Origin: Micromonospora cathayae
GTDB taxonomy: Bacteria > Actinomycetota > Actinomycetes > Mycobacteriales > Micromonosporaceae
DNA length: 64,000 bases
Direction: 5' to 3'
Assembly (NCBI RefSeq): GCF_028993575.1
Contig: NZ_CP118615.1
Span: 7,132,443-7,196,442, forward strand
Part shown: positions 2,577 to 15,566 of the stretch, in pieces
Numbering within the stretch: the first letter of the stretch is position 1
Layout: each line of letters opens with the position of its first letter
Translations under genes and position numbers: made by a program
The notes under the pieces: model-generated
What the model saw: the letters and a program-made list of their open reading frames with translations, nothing else
Databases searched by the model: none
What the model was told of the DNA's origin: nothing

Positions 2577-3812
<1,236 letters not shown>

Positions 3813-5423: not shown

Positions 5424-6542
5424 GTGACGATTGACTATATGGTCGTCGGCGGGGGAATCGCCGGTGCCAGTGCCGGTTACCACCTCGCCCGGTACGGCCG
5501 GGTGCTGCTGGTCGAGATGGAACAGGTCCCCGGGCACCACTCCACCGGCCGATCCGCGGCGCTGTTCTCCGAGTACTACGGCGGACCGGTGGTACGCGCG
5601 CTGACCCGGGCCAGCCGGGCGTTCCTGCTCGACCCGCCGCCCGGCTTCGCCGCACACCCGCTGCTCACCCCACGCGGGGTGCTGGCCCTCTGCCCACCCG
5701 GCGCCGAGGAACTGTTCGACAGCGAACTGCGGGCCGGGGCCGAGGTCGACCCGCCGGCCCGGGAGATCGACCTCGCCGAGGTACCCGGCCGGTGTCCGGT
5801 CGTCCGATCGGGGTGGGCCCGCCGGGCGATGGTCAAGCCGGCCGCCCGGGACATCGACGTGGCCGCGCTGCACCAGGGCTACCTGCGGGGGATCCGGGCC
5901 GCCGGGGGCACCGTCGCCCGGTTGACCCGGGTACGGTCGCTCCGCCGGGAACGGGACCGCTGGCGGGTCCACACCGACGCCGGGGACCTCACCGCCCGTA
6001 CGGTGGTGAACGCCGCCGGGGCGTGGGCCGACGAGGTCGCCGTCTCGGCCGGCGTACGGCCGGTGGGGTTGACGCCGCTGCGGCGGACCGCCTTCCTGGT
6101 GGACGCGCCGCCGGGCGTCGACGTGGCCCGCTGGCCGATGGTCGCCGACGTGGCCGGCACCTTCTACGTCAAGCCGGAGTCCGGAGGGCTGCTGGTCTCC
6201 CCGGTCGACGCCACGCCGGTGCCGGCCGGTGACGTCCGCCCCGACGACCTCGATGTGGCGCTCGGGGTGGCCCGGCTGGAGGAGGCCACCACGCTGACCG
6301 TCCGCCGGGTCCGGCACGCCTGGGCCGGGCTGCGGACGGCCGCGCCGGACGACGTACCGGTGATCGGCCCGGCCCCGGACGCGCCCGGTTTCCTCTGGCT
6401 GGCCGGCCTGAGCGGGTACGGGGTGCAGACCGCCCCCGCCGCCGGCGCCCTGCTCGCCACCCTAGCCACCGGCCACCCCCTCCACCCCCACACCCCCGAC
6501 CCCACCCCCTGCTCCCCCGCCCGGTTCTTCGGTCGATCATGA
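5424..6542 (+). CDS. FAD-dependent oxidoreductase (DAO family)
   Basis: A 372-residue flavoenzyme. The N terminus VTIDYMVVGGGIAGASAGYH is the Rossmann dinucleotide-binding motif (GxGxxG-type, residues 9-14). A central VVNAAGAWAD and the C-terminal VIGPAPDAPGFLWLAGLSG are typical of the D-amino-acid oxidase/glycine oxidase/sarcosine oxidase family, which oxidise amines or hydroxy acids with FAD. The substrate is unknown. GTG 5424 is preferred over upstream starts because the Rossmann motif begins there. The gene converges on the MFS gene of the shell-protein operon; their stop codons both lie inside one palindromic element. Whether it belongs to that pathway is inference. Confidence 0.85.
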   Translation: MTIDYMVVGGGIAGASAGYHLARYGRVLLVEMEQVPGHHSTGRSAALFSEYYGGPVVRALTRASRAFLLDPPPGFAAHPLLTPRGVLALCPPGAEELFDSELRAGAEVDPPAREIDLAEVPGRCPVVRSGWARRAMVKPAARDIDVAALHQGYLRGIRAAGGTVARLTRVRSLRRERDRWRVHTDAGDLTARTVVNAAGAWADEVAVSAGVRPVGLTPLRRTAFLVDAPPGVDVARWPMVADVAGTFYVKPESGGLLVSPVDATPVPAGDVRPDDLDVALGVARLEEATTLTVRRVRHAWAGLRTAAPDDVPVIGPAPDAPGFLWLAGLSGYGVQTAPAAGALLATLATGHPLHPHTPDPTPCSPARFFGRS

Positions 6543-6589
6543 AGTTGTTGTCACCTCACCCGGCGTGTCGGGTCGGTAACTTCATGATC
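6535..6589. repeat. Palindromic interspersed element, copy 1
   Basis: Perfect 12-bp inverted repeat GATCATGAAGTT (6535-6546) / AACTTCATGATC (6578-6589), with an inner stem ACCCG (6558-6562) / CGGGT (6569-6573) around the loop GCGTGT. The stop codons of both convergent genes (plus TGA at 6540-6542, minus TGA at 6590-6588) lie in or at its arms. It is flanked by a C-rich tract (about 6474-6523) and a G-rich tract (about 6594-6660). A second copy is at 48155-48209. Confidence 0.85.
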
Positions 6590-7790
6590 AACGGGGTGGC
6601 GGGGCGGGCGGGGTGGCGGCGGGGGGTGGGGTGGGTGGGGTGGGGGTGGGGGGTGTGAGGGCGGAGAGGGTGGCGGAGGCGAGGGCGGCCAGCAGGGTGA
6701 CCCAGAAGACGGCGGGGTAGCCGGCGGCGCTGGCCACCAGACCGGCCAGCGGGCTGCCGACCACCAGGCCCAGGTCCCAGAACGAGGTGAACGCGCCGAG
6801 CGCCGCGCCCTGGTGCGCCGGATCGGTCCGGTTGATCACCAGCAGGGCCAGCGCCGGGAACAGCAACGACAGGCCGGCCCCGACGACCAGGCCACCGAGG
6901 ATGGCGACCCACAGGTTCGTCGCCACCGCCACCAGCAGCAGCCCGACCGCCTCCACCAGCGCCGACCAGAGCGCCACCCGGCGGGCCCCGAGCCGGTCCG
7001 GCAGCCCGCCGACGAACAGGCGTACCCCGACGTAGGTGAAGCCGAAGGCGTTGAACGCGGCGATACCGTTCGCCACCCCCCGGTCGGCCAGGTGCAGCGC
7101 GGCGAACGCGGCGAGGCCGGCGTACCCGAAACCGGCCAGCGTCAGCGCGATCCCCGGCGCGACCGCGCTGCGCGGCAGGAGCCCGGCCCGGCCGGCGGCC
7201 GGGGCCTGCTCCGGGCGGGGCCGGGTGGCGACCAGCGCCGCCCCGAGCGCCGCCGTGACCACCGCGAAGATCCACACCGGCGGGTAGCCGTCGGCGGCCC
7301 GGAACAGCACCGTACCGAGCAGCGCGCCCAGGGTGAGCCCCAGCCACATGTGGATGCCGTACAGGCCGACGATCCGGCCGCGCCGTTCGACCGGGGCGAG
7401 CGCCACCAGCCAGGCCGCCCCGGCGGTGTAGACCGCGCCCTCCCCGGCACCGTGCACCAACCGGACCACCAGCAGGGCCGGCACGTTCCCGGCGACCAGG
7501 TAGCCGGCCCCGGCCAGGGCGCAGAGTCCCGCCCCGGCCAGCATCACCGTCCGGTAGCCGTGCCGGTCCCCGATCCGGCCGGCGATCGGCCGGCCGATCA
7601 CCGCGGCCACCGCGAGGGCGGCGATCACCGCGCCCACCTCGATCCGGCTGCCGTCCAGCTCGTCGAGGACCAGGAACGGCAGCACGGCCAGCGACGCCCC
7701 GGCCCCCAGCAGGGACAGCAGGATCGCCCCGAACAGCGGCAGGTACGGCCGGTAGAAGGTCAGGCGTCCGCCGATCGTGGTCGCGGTCAT
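6588..7790 (-). CDS. MFS transporter, probable exporter of the shell-protein cluster
   Basis: A 400-residue membrane protein of the major facilitator superfamily with about 12 hydrophobic segments. After the second helix it has the loop IGRPIAGRIGDRHGYRTVM, matching the MFS motif A (G-x-x-x-D-R-x-G-x-R). It resembles DHA1-type drug and metabolite exporters. The start ATG 7790 has GGGGAGAG upstream. It is the last gene of the minus-strand operon with the shell protein, 73 bp after that gene's stop, so export of the cluster's product is a reasonable guess. The Pro/Thr-rich C-terminal tail is encoded by the C/G-biased tract beside the palindromic element. Confidence 0.85.
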   Translation of the reverse strand: MTATTIGGRLTFYRPYLPLFGAILLSLLGAGASLAVLPFLVLDELDGSRIEVGAVIAALAVAAVIGRPIAGRIGDRHGYRTVMLAGAGLCALAGAGYLVAGNVPALLVVRLVHGAGEGAVYTAGAAWLVALAPVERRGRIVGLYGIHMWLGLTLGALLGTVLFRAADGYPPVWIFAVVTAALGAALVATRPRPEQAPAAGRAGLLPRSAVAPGIALTLAGFGYAGLAAFAALHLADRGVANGIAAFNAFGFTYVGVRLFVGGLPDRLGARRVALWSALVEAVGLLLVAVATNLWVAILGGLVVGAGLSLLFPALALLVINRTDPAHQGAALGAFTSFWDLGLVVGSPLAGLVASAAGYPAVFWVTLLAALASATLSALTPPTPTPPTPPPAATPPAPPPR

Positions 7791-7863
7791 GGCTGGCTCT
7801 CCCCTGGGCGGGCGGTCATCGGCGGCTCTTCCTGGGCATGGTCGTGGATCCTGACCGGCCCGG

Positions 7864-8769
7864 TCAGGCCGGTACGACGTGGAAGAAGTGGGTCGGCAGG
7901 TGGATGGCGAGTCCTTCGTGGATCTCCGCGCAGACGGCCGGGCCGTCGGTGGCGAAGGTCCCCGGCGGCGGTACGGCGACCCGGATCGCCGAGCGTCCCG
8001 CGTCGAGCAGGCGCGCGGCCATCGCGAAGTCCCCGACCACCGCCTCGCCCGGGGCGACCATCCGGGTCCGGCTGATCTGTACCCCGTTGCGGGTCAGGTC
8101 GGCCAGCAGGCTGCCCCGGCCGAGCAGGTGGGTGTAGTAGTCCCGGGGATTGACGATCATCGCATGCGGGGTGGCCCCGGTCTGTTCGATCTCGTCGCAG
8201 GCGGCCAGCAGTCCGGTCAGCCAGTCGTGCCGGTACGGCAGCTTCGCGATCTCCGGGTGCCGCAGCAGCCCGTGTTCGCCGATGGTCAGCGCCTGGTTCT
8301 CGGCGGTGGCGAGCCGGACCAGCAGCCGGTAGTCGACGAAGACCGCCAGGCCCTCCGGGTCCTCGGCGAGTTCGGCGGGAAGCTGCACCCAGGCCCGGAC
8401 CGGGTGCACCCCGGCCTGGGCCATGCCGAACCGGAACGCGGCCTCCCGGCGCAGCTGCACCTCGTGCACGGTGGCCGCCTCGGCGGCGTCCGGCCGGCGC
8501 TCGCACCAGAACCGGACCGGGTCCAGGTCGACCATCCGCTTCCGGAACAGGTTGCGGACGGTCACCCGGGGGCGTTCCTTGGTGGGCTGGAAGGCGTCGG
8601 TGATGGTGAAGTCGAAGCGGACCTCGGCGGTGGCCGGGTCGGCGAGGTACGCGGCGGCGAACTCCTCCCCGGGCGAGCGGGTGACGGGCGACCCGCTGAC
8701 GGGAGATCCGGTGACGGGTGGTCCGCTCGCGGGCGACTGGCTGGCGGGCGGCGCGCTGGCGGTGGTCAT
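7864..8769 (-). CDS. HK97-fold encapsulin-like shell protein (family 3 type)
   Basis: A 301-residue protein that I read as a nanocompartment shell protein. After a disordered N-terminal arm (residues 1-35, six Pro-ending pentapeptides) come the features of HK97-type major capsid proteins. WVQLPAELAEDPEGL and the helix with LVRLATAENQAL match the P-domain 'E-l-x-E-D ... r-l...EN-x-a-l' region. ATPHAMIVNPRDYYTHLL and MVAPGEAVVGDF match the conserved A-domain 'p-x-a-i-v-v-n-P-x-d' and 'G-x-a-l-v-G-d-f' strands. No phage portal, protease, terminase or tail gene is near, so this is not a prophage. Its operon (NRPS, AKR, sulfotransferase) matches the published description of natural-product encapsulins. 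The ATG overlaps the sulfotransferase stop (ATGA) with GAGGAG upstream. Cargo is unknown. Confidence 0.82.
   Translation of the reverse strand: MTTASAPPASQSPASGPPVTGSPVSGSPVTRSPGEEFAAAYLADPATAEVRFDFTITDAFQPTKERPRVTVRNLFRKRMVDLDPVRFWCERRPDAAEAATVHEVQLRREAAFRFGMAQAGVHPVRAWVQLPAELAEDPEGLAVFVDYRLLVRLATAENQALTIGEHGLLRHPEIAKLPYRHDWLTGLLAACDEIEQTGATPHAMIVNPRDYYTHLLGRGSLLADLTRNGVQISRTRMVAPGEAVVGDFAMAARLLDAGRSAIRVAVPPPGTFATDGPAVCAEIHEGLAIHLPTHFFHVVPA
8682..8756 (-). repeat. 15-bp in-frame minisatellite encoding the shell protein's N-terminal arm
   Basis: Five tandem 15-bp units (consensus TGACGGGNGNNCCGC on the plus strand) at 8682-8756. Read on the minus strand, with flanking degenerate copies, they give six pentapeptides of the form [AV]-[ST]-x-[SP]-P at residues 4-33. 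Confidence 0.85.
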
Positions 8770-9503
8770 GACGGCTCCTCGACCGGGATGGCGTGCTGGA
8801 TGAGGCGCTGGTAGAACGGCAGGTGGTACGCGTGGTAGGCGCGCAGGGTCGGGTCGTTGTCGACGGTCACCGCGAAGTCCTTGTCGACCGGGCGGAATCC
8901 GGCGGTGCGTTCCACGTCGAGGTGCCAGATCCGGGTCCGCCGCCACTCGGCGCGCTCCCCGGGATCCCAGGTCAGTGCCTCCGGCCGGTACGGCAGCCCG
9001 ACCGCCGCGCACCAGGCCGCCACCACCCGTTCCGGAGCCCGCAGCAGCGCCTCGGCGGAGAGCACCACCGGTGGTCGGTGGGCGGTGGCGCGGACCAGTT
9101 CGAACAGCTCCCACTGGTGCTCGTAGCCGATCTCGTGGCACTGCACGGTCGGCTTGATGGCGTGGTGCGAGCTGATCGTCCGGGCCGGGTCGCGGACCAG
9201 GAAGGTGTGCGTGGCGTCGGCGATCCGCTCCGGGGCGGCGAACAGGTGCGCGTACCGGTACTCCAGGGTGTCCTTGACGAACACCGGGCGGTCCCGGCCC
9301 AGCGCGACCAGGTGCGCGGTGACCTCGTCGGGGCTGGTCACGGTGACGGTGCCGCCGTCGGCGGCGGGCAGGTCGACCCGGCCGGTGTCCACCAGGGTGA
9401 CCAACGGCTCGTGCACCACCGTGACGTCGCCCCGGGCGATCATCATGCGCAGGAAGGCGGTGGAGACGGCGCGCGGGTGCGCCCACATGGCGATCAGCGC
9501 CAT
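8766..9503 (-). CDS. Sulfotransferase
   Basis: A 245-residue PAPS-dependent sulfotransferase-like protein. The N terminus MALIAMWAHPRAVSTAFLR holds the 5'-phosphosulfate-binding loop (residues 7-17, HPRAVST for the usual PRSGST). FLVRDPARTISSH (102-113) is the 3'-phosphate-binding motif with Arg104 and Ser112. His31-Glu32 lies in the VVHEP segment typical of this single-domain group. It would transfer a sulfo group from PAPS to a hydroxyl or amine of a small molecule. I chose ATG 9503, which has a G-rich stretch upstream; a longer frame up to 9659 would add a disordered extension. Its stop overlaps the shell gene's start by 4 bp, so the two are probably coupled. Confidence 0.85.
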   Translation of the reverse strand: MALIAMWAHPRAVSTAFLRMMIARGDVTVVHEPLVTLVDTGRVDLPAADGGTVTVTSPDEVTAHLVALGRDRPVFVKDTLEYRYAHLFAAPERIADATHTFLVRDPARTISSHHAIKPTVQCHEIGYEHQWELFELVRATAHRPPVVLSAEALLRAPERVVAAWCAAVGLPYRPEALTWDPGERAEWRRTRIWHLDVERTAGFRPVDKDFAVTVDNDPTLRAYHAYHLPFYQRLIQHAIPVEEPS

Positions 9504-9555
9504 GCCGCCCCCGCCGCTCGTCCCCGCCGGCCGGGCCGGGTGGGTGGTGCGGGCG

Positions 9556-9579
9556 GGACCGGGCGACGCGGCCCGGTCC
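9556..9579. other. Intra-operon hairpin between the aldo-keto reductase and sulfotransferase genes
   Basis: Perfect 9-bp stem GGACCGGGC (9556-9564) / GCCCGGTCC (9571-9579) with a 6-nt loop, in the only sizeable gap (112 bp) between the NRPS and the shell gene. It could attenuate readthrough or be an RNA-processing site that sets shell versus enzyme levels. Confidence 0.6.
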
Positions 9580-9615
9580 GGACGATGGAACCGGGCACCG
9601 GCACACAGGCGGGGG

Positions 9616-10599
9616 TCACTGGGACCATCCGGTCGGTTGGCGGTCCCAGCGGTGGGCACGCAGCCGGGCCAGCAGGTCCGGGTCGAGGGGCTGCCCGTCG
9701 CTGACCGCCAGGTTGGCCCGGACGTGCTCGGGCCGGCGCATGCCGGGGATCACCGTGCCCACCGCCGGGTGGTGCAGGATGAACCGCAGCGCCAGCTCCG
9801 GCATGGTCATCCCGGGTGGTACGTCGACGGCGAGCTTCTCGGCGCGGGCCACGCTGGGGCCGAGGTTCTCCGGGCCGAAGTACGTGCTGCGCCAGTCCTC
9901 CGGCGGCCAGTTGCTGTCGGCGGTCAGTGTGCCGGTCAGCGTCCCCTCGTCGAACGGGACCCGGGCGATGATCCCGATGTCGTCGCGGAGCGCCCGGCCG
10001 AACAGTTCGTCCTCGGGGGCCTGGTCGAAGATGTTGTAGATGACCTGGACGACGTCGATCAGACCGGTGTCCAGGGCGGCCAGGCAGTTCGTCGGCTCCC
10101 AGCGGTTCACGCTGATCCCGACGCCGTCGACCAGGCCCTGCCGTTTCAGGTCGGCGATGGTCTCCTGCCAGCGGCCGTCGGTGGCCCAGCGGTCCTCCCA
10201 GACGTGGAACTGCATCAGGTCGATCCGCTCCACGCCCAGGTTCTCCAGGCTGTACCGGGTGTACTCGCGGATGTGCTCGGCCGGGAACACGTCGTCGAGG
10301 GTGTCGCCCGGTCGGGGCGGCCACTCCCGGTTCTTCGGCGGGATCTTGGTGGCCACGTACAGTCGCCGGTCCGGGTGGCGGCGCAGCAGGTCACCGAGGA
10401 GGCGTTCGCTGACGCCCCGCCCGTACACCCAGGCGGTGTCGAAGAAGTTGCAGCCCCGCTCCACCGCCTCGTCCAGGCAGCGCGGGGCGACGTCGTAGTC
10501 CCAGCCGGTGAACCCGCCGGGACCGCCGCCGATCCCCCACATCCCGTACCCGACCTCGCTGACCTTCCAGCCGAGGCGACCCAACCTGCGATAGCGCAT
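9616..10599 (-). CDS. Aldo-keto reductase
   Basis: A 327-residue (alpha/beta)8 NADPH-dependent oxidoreductase. The catalytic tetrad of the AKR superfamily is visible: Asp54 and Tyr59 in FFDTAWVYG, Lys85 in VATKIPP, His132 in LMQFHVWED. The C-terminal cofactor-binding part contains AVGTVIPGMRRPEHV, a typical AKR ending. It would reduce an aldehyde or ketone. The NRPS 17 bp upstream ends in a reductase domain that would release an aldehyde, so this enzyme is a candidate to reduce that aldehyde to an alcohol (inference). ATG 10599 has a purine-rich GGGAAGAG site upstream. Confidence 0.9.
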   Translation of the reverse strand: MRYRRLGRLGWKVSEVGYGMWGIGGGPGGFTGWDYDVAPRCLDEAVERGCNFFDTAWVYGRGVSERLLGDLLRRHPDRRLYVATKIPPKNREWPPRPGDTLDDVFPAEHIREYTRYSLENLGVERIDLMQFHVWEDRWATDGRWQETIADLKRQGLVDGVGISVNRWEPTNCLAALDTGLIDVVQVIYNIFDQAPEDELFGRALRDDIGIIARVPFDEGTLTGTLTADSNWPPEDWRSTYFGPENLGPSVARAEKLAVDVPPGMTMPELALRFILHHPAVGTVIPGMRRPEHVRANLAVSDGQPLDPDLLARLRAHRWDRQPTGWSQ

Positions 10600-10616
10600 C
10601 CACTCTTCCCTTCGGT

Positions 10617-13600
10617 TCACCCGGTCGGCGGCGACGTCGGTCCGCCGCCGTGCCGTTCCCGCCCGGTCAGCCAGCGGCGGTAGGCGTCGATCGACGGGGT
10701 CAGCTCCCCGTCGGTGAGGCCACGCCGTCGTTCCAGCCGCGCGCACCCGTCCCGCCGGAACAGCCGGGGGTTGTCGGTGAGCAGCGCGCCGAACACCACC
10801 CGCAGCTGCTCCTCGTCCGCGCCGAGGCGGGTCGGGAAGAGCGCCAGCAGCGCGGCGGCGTCCCGGTCGCCGTCGGTGACGGCGTCGCGGAGCGCGGCCA
10901 GGAACTGGGCGCAACTGACCCGGGGTACGTGGTCACCGGGCAGTTCGGTGAAGTCCACGCTGGCCGGGTGCAGCAGGTGCAGCGGCCGGCCCCAGGCGGC
11001 CCGGTCGACGACGGCGGCGACGATCCGGCGGGCGGCGTAGTCGACGGGCGTCCAGTCGGAGCGGACGGTGGCGTCGGGGCGCATGCCGAGCCGGTGGCAG
11101 GCGGCCAGCAGCAGGTGGGTGAGGGCGTGCCGGTTCGGTGTGCCGTTGTCGGCCGCCGGCATCACCTCGCCGAGCCGCAGCACGGTGACCGTGGCGCCCC
11201 GCCGGCGGGCGGCGGTCAGGTACCGCTCGGCCACCCACTTGGACCGGCTGTACCCGCTGCGCGGCGGCACCGCGACCGCCGGGTCGTACGTCTCGGGCAG
11301 CGGCCGGGTGTGCCTTGCCGCCTCGGTGTCGAGGACGCCGAGGGTGGAGACGTGGTGCAGCGGCTTGGGCCGGTCGGTCAGCGCCAGCCGGAGCAGTTCG
11401 CCGGCACCGAGCACGTTGGCCGGCCGGTGGGCCCGGTAGTCGAAGAGGAAGTTGACCAGCGCCCCCGCGTTGAGCAGCAGGTCACAGTCGCCGGCCAGGT
11501 GTGCCCAGGTGCGCGCGTCCAGGCCGAGCGCGGGCCGGGCCAGGTCGCCGGCGTACCCGGTGAGCCGGTCGGCGAGGTGGTCCGCCCACAGTCCCCGGTC
11601 GGCCAGGGCCCGGACCACCCGGGCGGTGGCCGCGGTGTCGTCGGCGGCCCGGGTCAGGCAGTGCACCCGTACGTCGGTGGTGGTGAGCAGTTCGTGGACC
11701 AGGCGGCTGCCGACGAACCCGGTGGCCCCGGTGACCAGTACGGTGCGGACCTCGCGGTGCGGGTCGGCGGCCCGGACCGGCAGGTCGGCCGGGAGCCGGA
11801 CGTCCCGGGCGACCAGGTCCGCCTCCGGTTCGGCGGGTACGTGCCGGCGGCGGGCCAGCAGGTCGGCCAGCCGGGCCGGGGTGCGCTGCTCGAACAGGTC
11901 CTGGACGCCGACGGTGACGCCGTGTTCGCCGGCGAGCGCGGTGGTGACCGCGACGGCCTGGAGGGAGTCGCCGCCGACGGCCAGGAAGTCGGTGTCCACG
12001 GTCAGGTCGGGGTCGCCGAGGACGGCCCGGAACACCGCGAGCACCGTCCCGGGCAGGGTGGCCGGCGCGGCGGTGCCGGCCAGCCGGGTGGCCCGGTCGT
12101 GGCGGACCCGGTCCAGGTGGCTCTGGAGGGCCCGCCGGTCCACCTTGCCGTTGCGGGTCAGCGGCAGCGCGTCGAGGACGACCAGGTGCCGGGGCACGCT
12201 GGTGCGGGGCAGCAGCCGGCGCAGATGCTCGCGCAGCACCGGTTCGGGTACCGCCCGGTCGGCGGCGACGAACAGGGCGAGGGACCGGCCGCCGCCGTCC
12301 CGGGCGACGATCACCTTGGCCTGGTGCACGCCGGCCAGCCGGGTCGCCGCGGTCTCGATCTCGCCGGCCTCGATCCGGACGCCGTTGACCTTGAGTTGGA
12401 AGTCCCGCCGGCCGACGAAGTGCAGCCGACCGTCGGCGTCGAGACGGCCCAGGTCGCCGGTGCGGTACAAGCGTCGGCCGGGGATCTCCGGCAGCGGGTT
12501 GGGGACGAACACCTCGGCGGTGCGGGCGGGTGCGCCCAGGTAGCCGGCACCGAGGCAGGTGCCACCGATGACGATCTCACCGACCGCGCCGGGTGGCAGC
12601 GGACGCAGCTGGGCGTCGACCACGGTGGCGTAGCAGTTGTCGATCGGCCGGCCGATCGGGACGGTGTCGCCGTCGGCCGGGGTGACCCGGTGGAAGACCA
12701 TGCCGATGGACGCCTCGGTCGGGCCGTACCCGTTGGTGACCTCGATCCCGGGCAGCAGTTCGCCGAGGCGGTGCACGGTGGACGGGTCGATCTCCTCGCC
12801 GCCGACGATCAGGTGGCGCAGGGTGCCGACCGCCCGGCGGGCCGCCGGGTCGCGGTCCACCAGTGCCACCAGCAGTCCGAGGATGCTGGGTACGAAGTCG
12901 GTCACGGTGATCCGCTCGGCGGCGATGGTCCGGACGGTACGGGCCACGTCGAGGAAGCCGCCCTGCACCGGCACCACCACCCGGCCGCCGGTGGTGAGCG
13001 GCCAGAACAGCTGCCACACCGAGGAGTCGAAGGTGTGCCGGCTGTTCTGGAGCACCACCTCGTCCCCGGTGGCCCGGAACCAGCGGGTCATGAACCGGAA
13101 CCGGTTGGCGAGTCCGTCGTGCCGGTTCATCGCGCAGCGGGGGGTGCCGGTGGTGCCCGAGGTGAAGATCCCGTAGATCAGGTCGGCCGGGCCGATCGGC
13201 ACGCCCGGCCGCTCGTCGGTCGGCGTGATCCGGTCCAGCAGCACCGGCACCGTCGCCACCGCGCCGGCCCCGGCGCCGTTGCCGCCGGCGGCAACGGGCC
13301 GGAGCAGGTCGTCGGGCAGCGTGCCGGTCGGGCCGACCACCACCAGCCGGGGGGCGAGCACCGCCAGGGTGGCGCGGGTCCGGTCGTCCGGCCAGCCCGG
13401 ATCCAGCGGTACGAACGCCGCGCCGAGCTTCATCGCCGCCAGGTACGCCACCGGAAGTTCGAGACCGTCGGCGAGCAGCACCGGCAGCACGTCGCCGTGG
13501 CGCACGCCGCGGGCGGTGAGCGTGGCGGCGAAGCCGTTCGCCAGCCCGTCGAGTTGCCGGTAGGTGAGGCGGCGGTCACGGAAGGAGACGGCGACCCGGT

Positions 13601-14318
13601 CGGGGTGGCGGTCGACGCACTGCTCGATCATCGTCGGGATCGCCGTGAACGGCTCGTCCGGTACGCGTCGCCCGGCCAGCCGGCCGAGGGCCAGCGCACG
13701 GTGGACCGGGCCGACGGCCGGGGCCCGGCCGGACGGCAGCAGCGGGTCGGCCAACAGCGCGGCGAACACCTCGGCGAACACCTCGGCCACCGCCGGCACG
13801 CTCACCGACCACGGGTCGGCCGGGGCGCAGCGCACCACGACGGCGACGCCGTCCGGGCTGACCGTCGCGCGGACCAGCACCGGTACGGCCTCTAACGCCC
13901 GGTGCGGCTCCCCGTCCAGCAGCACGACGAGCGGACCGGCCGGCCCGACGGAGCCGAGCGGGCCGACCGAGCCCAGGGAGTCGAGGGAGTCGAGGGGACC
14001 GGGCGGGTCGGGCGGGCTGGAGGGGCCGGGCGGAGCGGTCGCGCTGGCGGCCAGGGCGCGGACGGCGGCCCGGGCCCGGTCGCCGGGCAGCTGGTGCAGG
14101 TCCGCCGGCCAGTCCGGCAGGTCCAGGGCGGTGGCACCGGCCAGCACCCGGACGGGCAGGTCCCGGCCGAGCCGGTCGGCCAGTTCGACGGCGGCGAGTC
14201 CGGCGACGGCGATCCGGTCGTCGGCACCGCCGGCCACCGGTCGGGCCACGGTGTACCGGTAGGTGGGGCCGGCGGCGACGGAGACCGGTACCGCGGAGCC
14301 CGTGTCACCGGATCTCAT
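10617..14318 (-). CDS. Single-module NRPS: adenylation - thiolation - thioester reductase, with an unusual N-terminal domain
   Basis: A 1233-residue megasynthase. Residues 1-215 form an N-terminal domain I cannot assign; it lacks the condensation HHxxxDG motif and contains a Pro/Gly/Ser linker (about 92-130). The adenylation domain (about 225-725) has FTSGTTGTP (385-393), FDSSVW (430-435), YGPTEAS (531-537), YRTGDLGR (618-625) and the catalytic Lys725 in LTRNGKVD. A carrier domain follows with the phosphopantetheine Ser785 in GGDSLQA. The C-terminal reductase has VTGATGFVG (862-870) and YSRSK (1023-1027). It should activate one acid, hold it as a thioester and release it reductively as an aldehyde. 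The Lys usual in the adenylation P-loop is Thr here (GTTGTP). It is the first gene of the shell operon. Confidence 0.9.
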   Translation of the reverse strand: MRSGDTGSAVPVSVAAGPTYRYTVARPVAGGADDRIAVAGLAAVELADRLGRDLPVRVLAGATALDLPDWPADLHQLPGDRARAAVRALAASATAPPGPSSPPDPPGPLDSLDSLGSVGPLGSVGPAGPLVVLLDGEPHRALEAVPVLVRATVSPDGVAVVVRCAPADPWSVSVPAVAEVFAEVFAALLADPLLPSGRAPAVGPVHRALALGRLAGRRVPDEPFTAIPTMIEQCVDRHPDRVAVSFRDRRLTYRQLDGLANGFAATLTARGVRHGDVLPVLLADGLELPVAYLAAMKLGAAFVPLDPGWPDDRTRATLAVLAPRLVVVGPTGTLPDDLLRPVAAGGNGAGAGAVATVPVLLDRITPTDERPGVPIGPADLIYGIFTSGTTGTPRCAMNRHDGLANRFRFMTRWFRATGDEVVLQNSRHTFDSSVWQLFWPLTTGGRVVVPVQGGFLDVARTVRTIAAERITVTDFVPSILGLLVALVDRDPAARRAVGTLRHLIVGGEEIDPSTVHRLGELLPGIEVTNGYGPTEASIGMVFHRVTPADGDTVPIGRPIDNCYATVVDAQLRPLPPGAVGEIVIGGTCLGAGYLGAPARTAEVFVPNPLPEIPGRRLYRTGDLGRLDADGRLHFVGRRDFQLKVNGVRIEAGEIETAATRLAGVHQAKVIVARDGGGRSLALFVAADRAVPEPVLREHLRRLLPRTSVPRHLVVLDALPLTRNGKVDRRALQSHLDRVRHDRATRLAGTAAPATLPGTVLAVFRAVLGDPDLTVDTDFLAVGGDSLQAVAVTTALAGEHGVTVGVQDLFEQRTPARLADLLARRRHVPAEPEADLVARDVRLPADLPVRAADPHREVRTVLVTGATGFVGSRLVHELLTTTDVRVHCLTRAADDTAATARVVRALADRGLWADHLADRLTGYAGDLARPALGLDARTWAHLAGDCDLLLNAGALVNFLFDYRAHRPANVLGAGELLRLALTDRPKPLHHVSTLGVLDTEAARHTRPLPETYDPAVAVPPRSGYSRSKWVAERYLTAARRRGATVTVLRLGEVMPAADNGTPNRHALTHLLLAACHRLGMRPDATVRSDWTPVDYAARRIVAAVVDRAAWGRPLHLLHPASVDFTELPGDHVPRVSCAQFLAALRDAVTDGDRDAAALLALFPTRLGADEEQLRVVFGALLTDNPRLFRRDGCARLERRRGLTDGELTPSIDAYRRWLTGRERHGGGPTSPPTG

Positions 14319-14684: not shown

Positions 14685-15566
<882 letters not shown>

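Follow-up and report, generated by a model that had tools for sequence, protein, structure and literature searches.

A biosynthetic gene set with a Family 3 encapsulin gene in Micromonospora cathayae

We analyzed a 64,000-nucleotide stretch of the Micromonospora cathayae genome (the window; all coordinates are positions within it) in which a gene for a predicted protein shell lies among biosynthetic genes. Five genes of the set are on the minus strand. The first encodes a nonribosomal peptide synthetase (NRPS; 10617-14318) with Pfam matches to AMP-binding, PP-binding, and NAD_binding_4/thioester reductase, giving an adenylation-thiolation-reductase (A-T-R) organization: the adenylation (A) domain covers residues 232 to 594, the carrier domain residues 759 to 821, and the thioester reductase (R) domain residues 862 to 1098. 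It is followed by an aldo-keto reductase (AKR; 9616-10599) recognized by Pfam, a sulfotransferase (ST; 8766-9503, with its start at 9503; 245 amino acids; Sulfotransfer_5, PF19798), the shell protein (7864-8769; 301 amino acids), and a transporter of the major facilitator superfamily (MFS; 6588-7790), assigned by a family match and likely an exporter. The best start codon of the AKR gene is the ATG at 10599, preceded by GGGAAG; the resulting length of 327 amino acids is shared by the majority of the closest homologues. Profile matches thus confirmed all five genes listed in the first-pass annotation of this DNA. That list lacked a sixth member of the set, a plus-strand gene (GTG start at 5424, end at 6542) that is convergent with the MFS gene, 45 bases from it, and encodes a DauA-like FAD-dependent amino acid dehydrogenase of the DAO family.

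The stop codon of the ST gene and the start codon of the shell gene overlap by 4 bases in an ATGA at 8766-8769 on the minus strand. This coupling, noted earlier, is present in the window and in the Micromonospora relatives L032, L033, and L071, but a short gap separates the two genes in many other loci, and the overlap was therefore discarded as a conserved feature.

The shell protein matched the NCBIfam equivalog model for Family 3 encapsulins, NF041188, from position 1 to 266 of the 266 profile positions, with 363.6 bits against a cut-off of 180. Its AlphaFold model matched HK97 capsids and encapsulins among the matches listed in a fold comparison that included VIA-align; residues 1 to 27 were modeled with low confidence and are likely disordered. 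When the sequence was compared with solved chains, the best matches were phage capsids (best E value, 1e-5). Both earlier proposals for this protein, a predicted HK97 fold and an encapsulin identity, therefore held. It is a further Family 3 encapsulin, a kind already published in 2021. In an alignment of 60 shell sequences, 58 positions were invariant, and the other 59 sequences were 60 to 93% identical to that of the window.

A PHROG search with the shell protein gave no match up to an E value of 1, a search of 50,697 phage records gave a single weak match with 22.7% identity, and plasmid records gave no match. A prophage remnant was ruled out on these grounds. No phage gene was recognized beside the shell gene within the window operon and its Pfam-matched flanks, where several open reading frames matched nothing; in the homologous loci, the phage-gene check covered selected genes.

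Conservation and distribution of the gene set

Loci of the window's type, here called class I, were compared in 25 records, 24 of them distinct because L034 and L075 appear to represent one contig. The AKR and the ST were found in all 25 records, the NRPS in 24 (the contig of L079 begins at the AKR gene), a DAO homologue in 23 (it is missing only from two short contigs, of 5.1 and 6.7 kb), and an MFS homologue in 19. The co-occurrence of the six genes is far beyond chance. The synteny check proposed earlier thus found the neighboring genes conserved, and in the window as well as in the named loci the shell gene lies in a biosynthetic context, beside genes for an NRPS, an AKR, and an ST. None of the three observations that the first-pass annotation had listed as contrary to its proposal, namely, a fold other than HK97, adjoining phage morphogenesis genes, or unconserved neighbors, was made. 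In one locus (L047, genome G031), the start region of the AKR gene and the N terminus of the shell, which is split over two frames, look frame-shifted, possibly owing to sequencing errors.

Among 300 genomes of the family Micromonosporaceae, a Family 3 shell above the NF041188 cut-off was found in 41, at 42 places. Forty places were examined (two in genome G086 were left out), and 10 of them belonged to the window's class; the other 30 shells were 44 to 47% or 34 to 37% identical to that of the window over the aligned part. A scan of named genomes with patterns derived from close relatives gave 17 loci, all of the window's class, in Micromonospora, Nonomuraea, Catellatospora, Allonocardiopsis, Actinoallomurus, Streptomyces, Paracidovorax, Ramlibacter, and Trinickia. 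The set spans Actinomycetota and Pseudomonadota, the latter represented by the last three of these genera, all Betaproteobacteria. Of 394 genomes sampled across the class, 9 had a shell above the cut-off. A tree of the NRPS was built from 26 rows, 19 from shelled and 7 from shell-free loci; the shelled rows L036, L038, L073 to L075, L079, L083, L085, and L095 stayed outside it as duplicates, incomplete, or omitted. The two betaproteobacterial NRPSs in this tree were nested among the actinobacterial ones (support, 83/81), which suggests horizontal transfer.

Predicted chemistry of the gene set

The A-domain pocket was read at what we take to be the ten standard positions, with residues placed by motif. 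The code of the window is DSWDIGGIGK, and all 23 readable class I rows, among which one locus is counted twice and from which L083 is missing since it has no A domain, fit DSWD[IV]G[GA]IGK. An Asp at the first position and a Lys at the last are expected for alpha-amino acids. The acidic residue at the fourth position hints at a substrate with a basic side chain; we know of no described code that matches the whole. Because the code varies at just two conservative positions, the same substrate is suggested for all members, and the A domain would likely load one unusual alpha-amino acid. The serine of the carrier domain and the Tyr-x-x-x-Lys motif of the reductase are intact. The first 220 or so residues of the window NRPS (1 to 220) matched no Pfam family, and this region is absent from the Nonomuraea, Streptomyces, and L080 proteins examined and from L071 and L120. 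We suspect that it may be a decayed condensation domain.

The AKR of the window has an intact Asp-Tyr-Lys-His tetrad, as do 24 of the 25 rows, the exception being L047 with its frame problem. The ST scored 54.3 bits against PF19798 (cut-off, 23.2). By sequence, it gave no meaningful match to solved structures; its predicted model (pLDDT 90) matched sulfotransferase folds, many of them with bound adenosine 3',5'-bisphosphate (PAP) and including the STs of curacin and olefin synthase. Two motifs are present, WAHPRxxST and RDP, which we take to correspond to the 5'-phosphosulfate-binding and 3'-phosphate-binding (5'-PSB-like and 3'-PB-like) motifs. Genes that supply the sulfate donor 3'-phosphoadenosine 5'-phosphosulfate (PAPS) adjoin the operon in Betaproteobacteria: Paracidovorax has genes for CysD and a CysN-CysC fusion, Trinickia and Ramlibacter both have one for CysC, and Ramlibacter also has one for a CysQ-like protein of the inositol-phosphatase family. 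Since genes for making PAPS adjoin the set there, a real sulfation step is supported.

The conversion proposed earlier, from acid to aldehyde to alcohol to sulfate, is consistent with the domain content, the intact catalytic motifs, and the betaproteobacterial PAPS-supply genes, and it stands as a prediction. The simplest reading, we infer, is a route from an amino acid through an amino aldehyde and an amino alcohol to an O-sulfate. Our preferred reading, which we hold tentatively at a probability of about 45%, is that the six genes make a 2-amino-alcohol O-sulfate from one alpha-amino acid and that the shell likely encloses the ST. The R domain would release the loaded residue as an alpha-amino aldehyde, the AKR would reduce it to the amino alcohol, and the ST would transfer sulfate to this alcohol from PAPS. 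The predicted shell would enclose the ST, possibly by way of a His-Ala motif at the ST C terminus (see below), and keep a reactive intermediate or product from the cytoplasm. The MFS protein would then export the product, and the flavoenzyme, in a supply or a clean-up role, probably oxidizes an amino acid whose carboxylate is free. What has been observed is the gene content and its conservation, the catalytic residues, the predicted folds, and where the shell gene is present or absent; the chemical steps, the cargo, and the purpose of the shell are proposals built on these.

Shell-free relatives and candidate cargo

Several observations in this section weigh against the preferred reading. No PAPS genes were found beside the 23 actinobacterial class I rows, and the MFS gene is absent from the Nonomuraea locus and four Streptomyces loci (5 of the 24 that are long enough). 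Others come from relatives without a shell gene. A search for the AKR subfamily (E value up to 1e-100) in the 300 family genomes found it in 18, of which 10 had shelled class I loci and 8 did not; those 8 regions (L120 to L127) gave no shell match by tblastn to an E value of 1e-4. L122, L123, and L126 have the NRPS, AKR, and ST genes, that is, the core set with no nearby shell gene. So does a ninth case from another family, L094, which has NRPS, AKR, ST, CysD, and CysN genes and no shell nearby. Because this set occurs without a nearby shell gene, the shell is not obligatory for the core genes. L121 and L124 have the NRPS and AKR genes without an ST match, L125 has the AKR gene alone, and L127 has it with a weak partial NRPS match. 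Six of the eight shell-free genomes had no Family 3 match in the survey of the 300 genomes; G002 and G037 have a shell of another class elsewhere, and the only shell match in the genome of L094 is likewise of another class and on a different contig. The pocket code is DSWDLGTIGK in L094, L122, L123, L124, and L126 and DSWDVGGIGK in L120 and L121.

An argininosuccinate-synthase-like gene lies beside the AKR gene in L122, L124, and L126 according to Pfam; in L094 and L123, such a neighbor was recognized solely by visual inspection. These neighbors suggest that the shell-free NRPS-AKR clusters may make a guanidine- or ureido-type product.

L120 differs from the other shell-free loci in its position in the NRPS tree, which was used because a tree of the AKR with distant paralogues had poor resolution, with 17 of its 33 inner branches left open. 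In the NRPS tree, L120 grouped with shelled Nonomuraea and Streptomyces members (support, 98/99), and a constraint placing all shelled members in one clade was rejected (approximately unbiased test, p-AU 0.0023), a test that leans on the L120 row. The gene order of L120 is that of the Nonomuraea type, with ATP-grasp, adenylation enzyme, DAO, NRPS, AKR, and ST genes; a luciferase-like gene occupies the expected place of the shell gene, and this stretch contains no N. L120 has therefore apparently lost its shell gene, and since it is nested among shelled members, the shell seems dispensable at least there. Its draft genome (810 contigs, 94% completeness) has a shell of another class on a different contig; it is possible that this shell substitutes in trans.

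The existence of shell-free clusters with the same core and the absence of a shell gene from L120 are what one would expect if the shell gene were a domesticated remnant of a phage, carried along with the cluster but playing no part in the pathway. We consider this very unlikely, because the shell is strongly conserved (the 58 invariant positions among 60 sequences), because in two phyla its gene adjoins the same pair of AKR and ST genes, and because the window shell has no recognized phage gene beside it and gave no PHROG match and the one weak match to phage records described above.

If the shell has cargo, the C termini of the enzymes are candidate docking sites. The C-terminal tail of the AKR, HRWDRxPxxWS, is nearly invariant among shelled members, and three paralogues in the same genome lack it. 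It is also retained in all nine AKRs of shell-free loci (the eight of L120 to L127, with Ser for Asp in L127, and that of L094), and it was therefore ruled out as an encapsulation tag. The ST of the window ends in HAI, a candidate shell-docking signal. At the C terminus, or a few residues before it, HA[ILFS] was found in 27 of 28 shelled rows (25 of the rows distinct), the remaining one, L039, having HFI. None of the five shell-free STs has the complete His-Ala pair at the aligned place, where L120 has Tyr-Ala, L123 and L126 have His-Arg, L122 has Leu-Arg, and L094 has Ala-Lys. The pair thus appears to track the shell, which is a lead toward a docking motif and not proof of one. This lead is tempered by partial retention (of the His in L123 and L126, of the Ala in L120, and of an HAL shifted two residues toward the N terminus in L122) and by the small number of independent cases, four of the five shell-free STs belonging to one diverged clade of the NRPS tree.

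With the same chemistry, the cargo could instead be the AKR, perhaps with the R domain of the NRPS; the shell would then trap the amino aldehyde, and sulfation would take place outside. Sequestration of aldehydes has already been published as a hypothesis for Family 3 in the 2021 survey (PMC8346489), and the AKR, present in all 25 class I rows, has a strikingly conserved tail. As that tail persists in all nine shell-free AKRs, it is no shell tag by itself, but docking through another surface is possible. We regard an AKR cargo as somewhat unlikely. Because of the His-Ala motif and because its gene directly precedes the shell gene, the ST is the likeliest cargo, slightly ahead of the AKR.

The flavoenzyme and the substrate

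The place of the DAO gene varies: in Micromonospora it follows the MFS gene and is convergent with it, in many other loci it is upstream of the NRPS gene, and in Betaproteobacteria it lies downstream. Since it is kept while it changes place and orientation, a functional link to the set is suggested. Its best solved relative is the D-arginine dehydrogenase DauA (3nyc and 6p9d; 335 bits). According to PMC11193025, R222 and R305 of DauA bind the carboxylate, and its glutamates E87 and E246 contact the guanidinium group. The equivalents of R222, Y249, and R305 were kept in all 23 flavoenzyme rows. The equivalent of E87 was Val in 21 rows, Thr in 1, and Ala in 1, and thus never acidic; that of E246 was acidic in 16 of the 23 rows and is Gly in the window. 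The loss of E87 together with the retention of R222 and R305 points to amino acid oxidation, but not by the mode in which DauA holds arginine.

Arginine was at first favored as the substrate of the pathway, on account of the acidic residue in the pocket and the relationship of the flavoenzyme to DauA, and this candidate was weakened by the loss of E87. In its wider form, the substrate would be arginine-like or guanidine-bearing, and the flavoenzyme would be a true D-arginine dehydrogenase that feeds or clears it. The acidic residue that all 23 readable rows have at pocket position 278, the 335-bit match to DauA, and the argininosuccinate-synthase-like genes of the shell-free L122, L124, and L126 would fit such a substrate. 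We nonetheless consider it quite improbable, given that residue 87 is never acidic and residue 246 only in part of the rows while both carboxylate-holding arginines are kept throughout, and given that the whole pocket code matches no arginine code known to us.

Other Family 3 classes in the same family

The 30 Micromonosporaceae loci of other classes differ in their enzymes. L040 to L043, L045, and L046 have a LysW-like carrier protein, and most of them also have a LysX-like ligase, an amino-acid kinase/peptidase fusion, a split transketolase, a short-chain dehydrogenase/reductase (SDR), and a PF13469-type ST; L041 has a semialdehyde dehydrogenase. CysD/CysN genes lie near the other-class shells of L040, L041, L045, and L099. 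A further group has a DegT aminotransferase, a methyltransferase, an SDR, an MFS protein, and a DAO-family gene, some with a called ST. In the 30 loci, an SDR family was called in 18 and an ST family in 10, counts affected by genes that the gene caller misses. The recurring theme appears to be a carbonyl reductase, an ST, and a shell, with the enzyme families changing.

A standalone adenylation enzyme and an ATP-grasp ligase were seen in L072, L084 to L087, L095, L042, L043, L050, L069, L070, and L120. These two enzymes are common to the Nonomuraea and Streptomyces class I loci and to L042, L043, L050, L069, and L070, with 57 to 70% identity to the Nonomuraea copies. It looks as if one conjugation module might serve several scaffolds across Family 3 classes and L120.

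In the biosynthesis of azinomycin and vazabitide, 2,6-diamino-5,7-dihydroxyheptanoic acid (DADH) is sulfated and the neighboring amine displaces the sulfate to give an aziridine, as outlined in PMC9570651. As the LysW-type class has the gene types of this route, Family 3 shells are linked to possible aziridine chemistry. The sulfate of the window's pathway could likewise be a leaving group: ring closure of the amino-alcohol O-sulfate to an aziridine, or another kind of attack on it, would yield an alkylating unit, and the shell would contain the formation of the electrophile. The combination of A-T-R, AKR, and ST predicts a vicinal amino alcohol sulfate, which, like the DADH-route genes in another class of the same family, agrees with this idea. 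No gene for the displacement step was recognized in the operon, where no search was aimed at AziU2/U3, the known genes for that step; moreover, the pathway may end in a stable sulfate, or a block on the amino group may prevent the displacement. A leaving-group role is therefore unlikely in our estimate. Broader still, and quite unlikely to hold in full, is the idea that Family 3 shells contain the synthesis of sulfate-activated electrophiles, that the amino-alcohol sulfate here is an aziridine-type precursor, and that the shell was added to an older shell-free NRPS-AKR-ST pathway, docks the C terminus of the ST, and can be lost.

Flanking genes

The operon is flanked by genes for a trypsin-like protease (14685-15560) and a subtilase (2577-3812). 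In 22 loci compared, the former was found only in L032, L033, and L071 and the latter only in L032 and L033. Since they recur only in Micromonospora relatives, the proteases are likely neighbors by descent and not parts of the pathway. Rfam and tRNA scans of the window gave no match.

Relation to known systems and implications

The first-pass annotation had called the operon a candidate for an undescribed system, and this was not supported: Family 3 encapsulins whose clusters include genes for sulfotransferases, reductases, and NRPSs were published in 2021 by Andreas and Giessen, who described 132 systems in six classes with sulfotransferase-SDR pairs and NRPS and carrier-protein clusters (PMC8346489). 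According to that text, no structure had been solved and the role was not then established. The window agrees with that description in the shell family, the cluster setting, the sulfotransferase and reductase theme, and the idea of aldehyde sequestration, and its class may be one of the six. The main text of the paper names SDRs and contains the term "aldo-keto" 0 times, whereas the window has an AKR; the six-gene composition, the DauA-like gene, the PAPS genes, the pocket code, and the shell-free relatives lie outside its section 9. What is added here is the delimitation of the set as six genes, the PAPS genes, the relatives without a shell, and the comparison of termini. A search by title and the start of the abstract, with most subscription journals outside its coverage, found no later work on Family 3 function, and the encapsulin described in PMC8776678 is of the linocin M18/Dyp peroxidase type.

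Other systems resemble parts of the set. The chloromyxamide cluster of Myxococcus also has a Family 3 shell within a peptide natural-product cluster; according to PMC8346489, it was the only Family 3 cluster studied experimentally as of 2021, and it yields a chlorinated methoxypipecolate peptide. As is predicted for the window's set, the azinomycin and vazabitide pathways (PMC9570651) sulfate an alcohol adjacent to an amine; they use an amino-group carrier protein, whereas the window operon uses A-T-R and has no recognized aziridine-forming enzyme. The best NCBIfam match of the NRPS was the myxochelin NRPS MxcG (NF038078), at 531.9 bits, far below the cut-off of 2300, and, unlike MxcG, the window NRPS has no recognized condensation domain. 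The flavoenzyme belongs to the same family as DauA and keeps its carboxylate-binding Arg, but E87 is lost and E246 is variable. The ST domains of CurM and olefin synthase (4gbm and 4gox), which were among the folds that matched the ST model, are integrated in polyketide synthases, unlike the ST of the window. In those enzymes, alkene formation proceeds with the sulfate as the leaving group.

The genes form a compact set whose pocket code hardly differs between members, and the comparison supplies shell-free clusters, one apparent loss of the shell, and a candidate docking motif. The PAPS-supply genes make the sulfation step credible, and the related shell-free clusters provide a natural comparison for probing the purpose of the shell. 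If a shell around the ST were confirmed, it would be a new use of an encapsulin, the containment of a sulfated intermediate, and would give a handle on the product.

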